A DNA stretch of 64,000 nt from NCBI RefSeq assembly GCF_023660105.1, contig NZ_JAMHGA010000034.1:62001-126000 (forward strand). Reading direction: 5' to 3'. This DNA is from Desulfovibrio aminophilus (GTDB taxonomy: Bacteria; Desulfobacterota; Desulfovibrionia; Desulfovibrionales; Desulfovibrionaceae). Below are positions 11,590 to 15,340 of the stretch, piece after piece. The translations under genes were made by a program, and so were the position numbers. Positions within the stretch are counted from its first letter, which is position 1. Every line of letters starts with the position of its first letter. The notes under the pieces were generated by a model. It was not told where the DNA came from, searched no databases, and worked only from the letters and a program-made list of their open reading frames with translations.

Positions 11590-11833
11590 TGAGCCGCTGG
11601 GCCACGTCCAGGTCGTAGAGCGCCAGGGGGTTGCGGTCCTGGCCGCGCTCCCGGAACATCTCGGCCGCGGCCTTGACGATCTCCAGGGAGAGCCAGCCGT
11701 GGCGCTCCCAGATGTCCGGGTCCTCGCGGCTCCAGAGCCGGAATTCGATGCGCCCCAAGTTGTCGCGCACGTACATGCGCGTGTCGTGGTTCTGCAAGCT
11801 GGGGTGGTAGTAGAGTCCTCTGTCGTCCTTCAT
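11573..11833 (-). CDS. Small conserved protein of unknown function
   Basis: An 86-residue soluble, mildly acidic protein beginning MKDDRGLYYHPSLQN, with no signal peptide or membrane segment. I do not recognise a named family. The ATG overlaps the stop of the upstream cysteine-cluster gene (ATGA at 11830-11833), indicating translational coupling and joint function. The central LGRIEFRLWSRED stretch and the aromatic residues suggest a folded domain. Its 3' end overlaps the convergent glycosyltransferase gene. Confidence 0.75.
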   Translation of the reverse strand: MKDDRGLYYHPSLQNHDTRMYVRDNLGRIEFRLWSREDPDIWERHGWLSLEIVKAAAEMFRERGQDRNPLALYDLDVAQRLIKDGE

Positions 11834-12459
11834 GCGTGTCTCCGTGCGGCGGTGAGTGCGGGCGTCAGCCGTTCCAGCGGGCGTCCGAACAGGAAGTCCA
11901 GGATCGCGGGGTCCATGCCCGATTTTTCCGTCAGGAGCAAGCGGACCTCGCGGTCCCAGGCCAGCATGGCGGCCCGGCTTCGCCGGTCTTCGGGAGTGTC
12001 GCCCTCCAGCAGCGCGGCATAGGCGGACACCGGGCAGCGCCGCTCGTGCTCGGCCACGAGCTCCAGCAGGGGATGCCCGGCGGGCAGGATGTCGCGCCGG
12101 GTCAGCCGGTTCCGGGCGTAGACCCGTTCGATCTCCCGGGTGTCGCGGCAGGACAGGGCCCGGCATTCCAGCGGCCGGGCCGCGTAGATGGCGCAGGCCG
12201 CGCCCTCGTCGGAGAGGAAGAGGCAGGTCCAGGCCCCGTCGCGGCCCTTGATCTTGACGATTTCCCCCTCCAGAGGCGCGACCGTCCCGGTGATCTGATC
12301 CAGGGCGGGCTCCCCGGCGCGCAGGGTCACCAGATGGACGAGGTCCGGCCCGCCGGGAGCGCGCAGCAGGGGCAGGTCGTCCGTGTGCAGGGCCGGGCCG
12401 CCCTTGCGGCAACATTCCCCGCAGCGGGCGCAGGTGGTGGTGTTTCGTTCCGAACTCAA
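11830..12459 (-). CDS. YkgJ-type cysteine-cluster protein
   Basis: This 209-residue protein has an N-terminal CARCGECCRKGG motif (residues 10-17) and later cysteines (CAIYAARPLECRALSC), the pattern of the YkgJ/UPF0153 cysteine-cluster family thought to bind Zn or an Fe-S centre. The biochemical function is unknown in the family. It is the promoter-proximal gene of a two-gene unit with the small protein at 11573 and is transcribed divergently from the dsr operon. Confidence 0.82.
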   Translation of the reverse strand: MSSERNTTTCARCGECCRKGGPALHTDDLPLLRAPGGPDLVHLVTLRAGEPALDQITGTVAPLEGEIVKIKGRDGAWTCLFLSDEGAACAIYAARPLECRALSCRDTREIERVYARNRLTRRDILPAGHPLLELVAEHERRCPVSAYAALLEGDTPEDRRSRAAMLAWDREVRLLLTEKSGMDPAILDFLFGRPLERLTPALTAARRHA

Positions 12460-12639
12460 GTTTTTCTTGAAATGGGGGTGACTTTTGGGTAATAATTCAC
12501 AAGCGCCCGCTCATGCGGGCGACGCCCCCCTGGTTACCCGCATGGCCGACGGATGGCAAGGGAGGTCCGGAAGGCCCTTTTGGGAGGCCGCCGCCTGACG
12601 CGGCGTTCTTCCGATGGGTCGCTGTCCGGCGTTTTTCGG

Positions 12640-12669
12640 TTGACAAAAAATGCGGCTCTTCCGTACATT
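12640..12669 (+). promoter_or_regulatory. Sigma-70 promoter in the dsr leader region
   Basis: TTGACA (12640-12645, perfect) is followed after 18 bases by TACATT (12664-12669). The predicted start, near 12676, is about 187 bases ahead of dsrA. It is the best promoter between the divergent cysteine-cluster gene and dsrA, and lies just before a terminator-like hairpin. Confidence 0.65.
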
Positions 12670-12697
12670 GTGGAGCCTGCATTCTGTTTACCGCTTT

Positions 12698-12741
12698 GGG
12701 CTTTCGCGGGTGGCTGAAGAACGCGCAAGCCCCTGTTTTTT
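12698..12741 (+). terminator. Terminator-like hairpin in the dsrAB leader (possible attenuator)
   Basis: GGGCTTTCGCG (12698-12708) pairs with CGCGCAAGCCC (12722-12732) except for one internal T-C mismatch, leaving a 13-base loop. CTG and then six T residues follow (12736-12741). This is the form of an intrinsic terminator, located between the promoter at 12640 and the dsrA start at 12863. It either attenuates dsrAB or ends a small RNA of about 65 bases. Confidence 0.6.
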
Positions 12742-12862
12742 CTCCGTTCCTTGACTTCAGAGGATATTCGTCCGGGCATGACGGCCTCCGCCGCGGGTCG
12801 ATGGTCTGGGCGTGCGAGAGTTGGCTGGTAACATTTTAAAAAAAACAATGGAGGTTAAGGGA

Positions 12863-14176
12863 ATGGCGAAACACAAAACCCCCTTGTTGGACCAGCTGGA
12901 AAGCGGGCCGTGGCCCAGCTTCGTGTCCGACATAAAGCAGGAATGCGACAGCAGGGCCAAGAACGCCAAGGGCGTCGACTATCAGATCCCGGCCGACTGC
13001 CCGGACGACCTGCTGGGCGTCCTTGAAATGTCCTATGTGGACGGCGAGACCCACTGGAAGCACGGCGGCATCGTGGGCGTGTTCGGCTACGGCGGCGGCG
13101 TCATCGGCCGCTACTGCGACCAGCCCCAGATGTTCCCCGGCGTGGCGCACTTCCACACCGTGCGCGTGAACCAGCCCTCCGGCCTGTACTACAAGACCGA
13201 CTTCCTCCGTCAGCTCTGCGACCTGTGGGAGCTCCGCGGTTCCGGTCTGACCAACATGCACGGCTCCACGGGCGACATCGTGCTCCTGGGCACGACCACC
13301 CCGCAGCTGGAAGAGATCTTCTTCGAGCTGACCCACAACATGAACAACGACCTCGGCGGCTCGGGCTCCAACCTGCGCACCCCGTCCTGCTGCCTGGGCC
13401 AGTCCCGTTGTGAGTTCGCCTGCATCGACACGCAGCAGCTCTGCTACGACCTGACCAACACCTATCAGGACGAGCTGCACCGCCCGGCCTTCCCCTACAA
13501 GTTCAAGTTCAAGATCGACGGCTGCCCGAACGGTTGCGTGGCCGCCATCGCCCGTTCCGACTTCTCGATCATCGGCACCTGGCGCGACGAGATCCGCATC
13601 GATCAGAAGGTCGTGGCCGCCTACGCCGGCGGCGAGATCAAGCCCAACGCCGGCGCCCACGCCGGTCGCGACTGGGGCAAGTTCGACATCCAGAAGGAAG
13701 TCGTCGAGCGCTGTCCCTCCGGCTGCATCCGCTACGAGGGCGGCAAGCTGGAGATCAACAACAAGGAGTGCGTGCGCTGCATGCACTGCATCAACACCAT
13801 GCCGCGCGCCCTGCGGATCGGTAACGACCGCGGCGCCAGCATCCTTTGCGGCGCCAAGGCCCCCATCCTGGACGGCCCGCAGATGTCTTCCCTGCTCGTG
13901 CCCTTCATCAAGGCCGAGGAGCCCTACTCCGAGATCAAGGAAGTCATTGAGAACATCTGGGACTGGTGGATGGAGGAAGGCAAGAACCGCGAGCGTCTGG
14001 GCGAGACCATGAAGCGTCTCTCCTTCCAGAAGCTCCTGGATGTGACCAATATCAAGGCCGATGCCCGCCACGTCCGCGAGCCGCGCCACAACCCGTACAT
14101 CTTCTGGAAGGAAGAGGAAGTGACGGGCGGCTGGAAGCGCGAAATCGCCGACTACAGAAAGAAGCACCAGAAGTAA
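12863..14176 (+). CDS. dsrA: Dissimilatory (bi)sulfite reductase alpha subunit
   Basis: At 437 residues it has the length I recall for Desulfovibrio vulgaris DsrA, and the opening MAKHKTPLLDQLESGPWPS is near-diagnostic. DsrAB reduces sulfite, with DsrC, in the last stage of sulfate respiration in the cytoplasm. The siroheme-[4Fe-4S] ligand motifs are visible as CLGQSRC and CPNGC, and a ferredoxin-type insert has C303, C306 and C309 (CVRCMHC). The start at 12863 has GGAGG at 12850-12854; the 17-residue upstream extension is rejected. dsrB follows after 18 bases. Confidence 0.99.
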   Translation: MAKHKTPLLDQLESGPWPSFVSDIKQECDSRAKNAKGVDYQIPADCPDDLLGVLEMSYVDGETHWKHGGIVGVFGYGGGVIGRYCDQPQMFPGVAHFHTVRVNQPSGLYYKTDFLRQLCDLWELRGSGLTNMHGSTGDIVLLGTTTPQLEEIFFELTHNMNNDLGGSGSNLRTPSCCLGQSRCEFACIDTQQLCYDLTNTYQDELHRPAFPYKFKFKIDGCPNGCVAAIARSDFSIIGTWRDEIRIDQKVVAAYAGGEIKPNAGAHAGRDWGKFDIQKEVVERCPSGCIRYEGGKLEINNKECVRCMHCINTMPRALRIGNDRGASILCGAKAPILDGPQMSSLLVPFIKAEEPYSEIKEVIENIWDWWMEEGKNRERLGETMKRLSFQKLLDVTNIKADARHVREPRHNPYIFWKEEEVTGGWKREIADYRKKHQK

Positions 14177-14194: not shown

Positions 14195-15340
14195 ATGGCC
14201 TTCATCTCTTCCGGATACAATCCCGAAAAACCGATGGAAAACCGGATCACGGACATCGGTCCCCGGCACTTCGAGGAGTTCCTGCCTCCGGTCATCAAAA
14301 AGAACAAGGGCACCTGGGCCTACCACGAGATCCTCGAGCCCGGCGTCCTGCTGCACGTGGCCGACTCCGGCGACAAGGTCTACACCGTGCGTTGCGGCGC
14401 CGCCCGCCTGATGACCATCACGCACATCCGTGAGATCTGCGACATCGCCGACAAGTTCTGCGGCGGTCACCTGCGGTTCACCACCCGCAACAACATCGAG
14501 TTCATGGTCACCACCGAGGACGAGGCCAAGGCCCTGAAGAAGGAGCTCAACGGCCGCAAGTTCTCCGGCGGTTCCTACAAGTTCCCGGTCGGCGGCACCG
14601 GCGCCGGCGTGACCAACATCGTGCACACCCAGGGCTGGGTCCACTGTCACACCCCGGCCACGGACGCCTCCGGCACGGTCAAGGCCACCATGGACGCCGT
14701 GTTCGAAGAGTTCACCAGCATGCGTCTGCCCGCTCCGGTGCGCATCGCCATGGCCTGCTGCCTGAACATGTGCGGCGCCGTGCACTGCTCCGACATCGCC
14801 ATCCTGGGCATTCACCGCAAGCCCCCGATGATCGACCACGAGCACCTGGACAACATGTGCGAAGTGCCCCTGGCCGTCGCCGCCTGCCCCACCGGCGCCA
14901 TCCGTCCCACGAAGACCGAGTGGCAGGGCAAGCAGGTGAACACCGTCGCGGTCAAGGAAGAGCGCTGCATGTTCTGCGGCAACTGCTACACCATGTGCCC
15001 GTCCATGCCGCTTTCCGACAAGGAAGGCGACGGCATCGCCATCATGGTCGGCGGCAAGATCTCCAACCGCATCACCCGCCCGGCCTTCTCCAAGGTCGTG
15101 GTGCCCTTCATCCCGAACGAGCCGCCCCGCTGGCCCACGATGACCAAGGTCATCACGCAGATCCTGGACGCCTACTCCAAGGGCGCCCGCAAGTACGAGC
15201 GCCTGGGCGACTGGGCCAACCGTATCGGCTGGGAGCGCTTCTTCGAGGTGTGCGGCCTGGAGTTCTCGCATCACCTGATCGACGACTTCCGTGATCCGGC
15301 CTACTACACTTGGCGCCAGACCACGCAGTTCAAGTTCTAG
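14195..15340 (+). CDS. dsrB: Dissimilatory (bi)sulfite reductase beta subunit
   Basis: A 381-residue partner of DsrA in the alpha2-beta2 sulfite reductase. It has the DsrB blocks [20 protein letters not shown] and [16 protein letters not shown], with a ferredoxin-like cluster site [12 protein letters not shown] in the second half. AGAGGGGG precedes the ATG. It is co-transcribed with dsrA; a strong hairpin without a T-tract separates it from dsrD. Confidence 0.99.

Follow-up and report, generated by a model that had tools for sequence, protein, structure and literature searches.

In the window analyzed here (a stretch of 64,000 nucleotides from a Desulfovibrio aminophilus contig), dsrA appears to carry a gene-specific structured 5′ leader that, in the reading we favor and hold to be fairly probable, acts through translation or mRNA stability and not through termination at its first hairpin (P1). 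Comparison of related leaders suggests that it probably tunes the amount of sulfite reductase, the key enzyme of sulfur respiration. DsrAB makes sulfide in sulfate reducers, and dsrAB is a central respiratory gene. A single transcript would begin near 12676 and run through a leader of ~187 nt into dsrA, in which the 5′ hairpin P1 is followed by a purine collar, then by a second hairpin with covariation (P2), and finally by a conserved stretch that leads into the Shine-Dalgarno site. The leader would act after initiation, on ribosome access and/or mRNA lifetime; we place its function there because termination is unsupported and the conserved block reaches the ribosome site. The features are as follows.

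12640-12669 (+): sigma-70-type promoter, TTGACA-18-TACATT, boxes kept in relatives
12676-12682 (+): CCTGCAT, putative conserved 5′ end of the transcript, CCTGCRT in relatives
12698-12732 (+): hairpin 1 (P1), earlier taken as a terminator stem; read from the letters, with a hairpin kept at the same place in relatives
12736-12741 (+): T6 tract, 3 nt (CTG) past P1; other genera do not keep it as a U tract
12760-12768 (+): purine collar GAGGATATT (alignments A2 and A8); most relatives read GAGGAAAGR
12769-12812 (+): hairpin 2 (P2), from folding and covariation across 56 leaders
12821-12862 (+): near-invariant block TTGGCTGGTAACATTTTA...CAATGGAGGTTAAGGGA in the relatives' alignment, containing the Shine-Dalgarno
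12850-12854 (+): Shine-Dalgarno GGAGG, inside the near-invariant block
12863-14176 (+): dsrA, dissimilatory sulfite reductase alpha subunit (TIGR02064, 628.5 bits, above cut-off)
14195-15340 (+): second subunit gene, which we take to be dsrB by its position (TIGR02064 also matches there, more weakly)

Relatives are referred to below by genus-level group numbers (g1, g5, g8, g14, and g29), of which g5 corresponds approximately to Pseudodesulfovibrio and g29 to Humidesulfovibrio, their leaders being identical or very close to those of named records; L064, L075, and L081 are placed in g5 by sequence only, and the window's own genus is handled with 3 leaders.

The promoter is convincing as judged from its letters, and is the stronger half of the original prediction, which had given its boxes and coordinates correctly. 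The boxes TTGACA (12640-12645) and TACATT (12664-12669), separated by 18 nt, match the consensus at 10 of 12 bases, and a scan of the region yields 2 promoter-type sites of such quality in 1.2 kb against 0.1 expected. The pair is found in all 3 genus members and in 17 of the 20 g5 leaders, so that it is both beyond chance and conserved. We infer a transcription start at ~12676, at the CCTGCRT motif, which every one of the 3 genus members and the majority of g5 leaders have. A pairing of this motif with AUGGAGG is a prediction only, made on invariant letters. Further upstream, ~140 bp 5′ of the promoter and adjoining the start of a divergent gene (11830-12459, − strand), lies TTTTGGGTAATAATTCACAAG (12485-12503, + strand), with the same letters in all three genus members; we liken it to the Rex operator, whose pattern is TTGTG..CACAA.

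P1 and the T6 tract are present in the letters exactly where they had been predicted, the stem being GGGCTT-T-CGCG (12698-12708) and CGCG-C-AAGCCC (12722-12732) around a 13-nt loop, and the tract ending 121 nt before the dsrA ATG (12863). Promoter, hairpin, and T6 thus stand in the proper order for a transcription attenuator, in which P1 and T6 would form a conditional intrinsic terminator cutting dsrAB transcription, and relatives retain a hairpin at the P1 place; one compensatory pair is seen in the genus alignment (G-C to C-G, both sides exchanged in sister genome G001). We nevertheless consider this explanation distinctly unlikely. The folding of P1 is no better than chance (z = +0.67; 149 of 200 shuffles fold equally well), as is that of the 75-nt segment containing it (z = +0.78) and of the whole leader (z = +0.51), so the window's P1 is ordinary for DNA of such composition; its mean z is −0.1 over the 3 leaders of the genus and −1.2 to −2.6 in other lineages. 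The T tract decays even inside the genus, from T6 in the window to T5 in G001 and TTTGTTT in G002, and is absent from the hairpin found at the P1 place in other genera. An intrinsic terminator is a stable GC-rich stem followed directly by a U tract and retained in relatives, and neither property is found at P1. A conserved antiterminator pairing is likewise not seen in the leaders.

Terminator scores point the same way. They were calculated with the d'Aubenton-Carafa/Lesnik formula and are used only comparatively, their meaning resting on a comparison within the same contig, where each run of at least 5 T in 180 kb was scored with its best preceding hairpin. Among the 67 T-run hairpins so obtained, 12 score above 0. 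The T6 run at 12736 ranks 15th with a best hairpin of −7.9, the stem of which differs from the named P1 stem, and the latter scores only −40.6; in the sister genomes, the T5 run gives −25 at best and TTTGTTT −66. Not one of 54 clade leaders scores above 0, nor does any of 78 further distinct dsrA leaders, a set which passes over loci with less than 200 nt of upstream sequence. A simple terminator scan of the region, permitting loops of at most 8 nt, also reports none. P1 with T6 is therefore rejected as an intrinsic terminator on its folding, its 3-nt spacer, its score, and the loss of its T tract. A possible pairing between the U tract and the A run 5′ of the Shine-Dalgarno was dropped, being mismatched in each of the two sister genomes.

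The original prediction had offered a separate RNA of ~65 nt as the other outcome of termination. Such a small RNA, leader-derived and acting in trans, is suggested by nothing but the distance from promoter to T tract, and is not expected because the termination it needs is unsupported; moreover, the letters of P1 differ between genera, unlike a trans-acting seed. We hold it to be very improbable. Alignment across relatives, the check that had been suggested, bears out the hairpin, which is kept in place (with one compensatory pair inside the genus), but not the T tract, which is lost, and better covariation is found downstream.

On the alignments, the best-conserved part of the leader is in fact 12760-12865, downstream of the proposed stop and overlooked in the original prediction. 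Leaders of relatives share one plan: hairpin 1 is followed by a GAGGAAAG-like collar, then by hairpin 2, and lastly by a near-invariant block that ends in the Shine-Dalgarno. P2 has an outer stem (12769-12777 with 12804-12812) and an inner stem (12782-12787 with 12795-12800). All 8 modelled pairs of the outer stem change on both sides in the 56-leader alignment, which was fitted to the model and so leans towards it, and 2 of the 8 do so in the unfitted 13-row alignment. Across the 56 leaders, 88.7% of paired cells hold standard pairs, against 82.5% in shuffles and 27% to 57% when partners are slid, and both-side changes occur in 10 of 15 pairs against 5.1 in shuffles, P2's eight being 8 of the 10. 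For both helices together, 63 cells are altered on both sides; shuffles give 19 such cells, and the signal disappears when partners are slid. On this comparative evidence the compensatory changes demonstrate that P2 is an RNA helix. P2 also folds better than shuffles in g29 (mean z = −3.3), g8 (−2.4), and g5 (−1.7), weakly so in the window's genus (−0.7, 3 leaders), and no better in g14.

The 3′ part is conserved as sequence. Across 17 g5 leaders, the last 46 nt ahead of the ATG are 90.6% identical, whereas the four-fold sites of dsrA reach 72.6%; this stretch is thus more conserved than the synonymous sites of the gene. A weak hairpin around the Shine-Dalgarno (P3; −0.2 to −0.8 kcal/mol in the window's genus) is better formed in relatives, and its pairs are mostly invariant in the 56-leader alignment; the leader structure is weakest in the window's own genus. 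In that genus ATGGAGGTTAAGGGAATG (12848-12865, + strand) contains an in-frame ATG that shares bases with the Shine-Dalgarno, and in g8 an extra T makes ATG GAG GTT TAA, a three-codon frame directly 5′ of the dsrA start. A GNRA-type tetraloop in the 3′ block fits well in g5 and g29 and not in g8 or g14, and is not claimed.

Hairpins that persist while their letters drift, with P1 starting ~22 nt from the likely transcription start, could also belong to a constitutive stabilizer or translation enhancer that slows decay of a very abundant message, as would suit a central respiratory gene, and that senses nothing. This is possible though doubtful, as the near-invariant single-stranded collar and pre-Shine-Dalgarno block exceed what a plain stabilizer needs. 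More speculative, and in our view rather unlikely, is that P1, the GAGGAAAG collar, and P2 form the receptor of a new class of sensing RNA and that the 3′ block relays its state to the ribosome through competing hairpins; siroheme, sulfite, or a metabolite linked to redox state might then serve, for instance, as the signal of sulfite reduction. The hairpins that would compete in the Pseudodesulfovibrio-like group are GGUUGAUG-GCAA-CAUC..AAUC and CUUAAUC..GGUUAAG. Such competing Shine-Dalgarno hairpins can be drawn in g5 and less clearly in g14, g29, and L055, with letters too conserved for covariation. Folding had hinted at sequestration of the Shine-Dalgarno in the clade, and this was abandoned when comparison with dinucleotide-shuffled leaders gave no effect: no clade group has its Shine-Dalgarno more hidden than shuffles (mean z = −0.2 to +1.3; −0.2 in the window's genus).

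The conserved purines invite a protein-bound explanation as well, in which CsrA would bind the GGA of the collar (12762-12764) and that within AUGGAGG beside the start codon, and block translation. The genome does have a csrA gene; however, 9 of 20 g5 leaders have lost the GGA from the collar (GCAAAG or GAGAAG) and a GGA is inherent in every Shine-Dalgarno of such kind. We regard this explanation as possible but unlikely.

The distribution of the element agrees with a leader specific to dsrA. Alignment A1 (17 rows) was reduced to A2 (13 rows) by dropping L045, L054, L079, and L081, the stems of which did not align in register; A8 regains these four and lacks L035, L053 (whose leader is that of L172), L078, and L101. 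Among family genomes, a covariance model of the last part (3′ half) of the leader built from 13 leaders (R1) matches 58 of 199 (E ≤ 0.01), and among order genomes 19 of 120. Its successor R2, built from 56 leaders and used at E ≤ 0.001, detects a single copy per genome, in 69 of 297 order genomes (7 of 55 genera) and in 57 of the 199 class genomes. The reading frame after the element is DsrA in all 72 loci checked, a set that includes duplicates as well as L035 and L078 and leaves out L148 and L161, both of which also start as DsrA. The element is thus constantly tied to one gene and kept in part of the bacterial family. Groups g22, g26, and g42, with weak R1 matches (E = 0.002-0.007) that are absent from the R2 search, are not counted as members. 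Rfam searches at the gathering scores of the families match only 2 tRNAs in the 64-kb window and nothing in 20 loci with dsrA; for the leader alone at E ≤ 5, the best match (E = 0.58) is under its cut-off.

Homology of all Desulfovibrionales dsrA leaders is not supported, as the models miss those of Nitratidesulfovibrio, Desulfovibrio, and Desulfonatronospira. Other leaders have features of their own. In Nitratidesulfovibrio, each of five leaders (L008, L009, L010, L013, and L015) contains CCTTACCTCC, which complements its own Shine-Dalgarno perfectly over 10 nt; these are 5 of the 7 tested (shuffle p ≤ 0.003) among 8 distinct loci (L008-L011, L013-L016; L011 left out), and the same leaders have, by eye, a Rex-like TTTGTCCAAAAAATCACG. 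Six dsrA leaders from Desulfonatronospira, Desulfonatronovibrio, and Desulfohalobiaceae (L070, L071, L083, L086, L091, and L092) share a CCGTCACC...GGTGGGGCGG hairpin, mostly followed by T4-T6, which is the closest approach to a dsr terminator seen (best score −3.1, L091). In Desulfobacterales, L094, L100, L101, L113, and L122 have a GAGRGGAGGTGAC block ~70-100 nt 5′ of the dsrA start codon, which, from its letters, may be another conserved leader element.

Regulation of the sulfate-reduction pathway by Rex and HcpR, as described in the papers found, acts on transcription (PMC545781, PMC7531388, PMC4215793), and DsrAB is noted to be missing from the predicted HcpR regulon (PMC545781). In the available part of a survey of noncoding RNA in Oleidesulfovibrio alaskensis G20, dsr goes unmentioned (PMC11124144). 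No description of RNA-level control of dsrAB, or of such a leader, was found in the literature searched, which covered few subscription papers. If conserved and specific to dsrA, such a leader would offer a point at which control of sulfite reductase output can be tested, with the covariance model as a guide to the genera that carry it and the bases to alter.

Among known systems, the trp and S-box leaders are intrinsic-terminator attenuators, and the dsrA leader resembles them in having a promoter, a hairpin, and a T run ahead of the first gene; it differs in its negative terminator score, its unconserved T tract, and an antiterminator that was not found. With translational riboswitches and other Rfam Cis-reg leaders it shares gene specificity, covarying hairpins, and unpaired blocks beside the Shine-Dalgarno, whereas it has no Rfam family match, and any ligand or switch would be hypothetical. 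The Nitratidesulfovibrio dsrA leader is likewise a candidate for RNA-level control, with the perfect anti-Shine-Dalgarno that the window's clade lacks. The ompA-type 5′ untranslated region is an mRNA stabilizer and, like the dsrA leader, places 5′ hairpins on an abundant message; the conserved unpaired blocks are what sets the dsrA leader apart from it.
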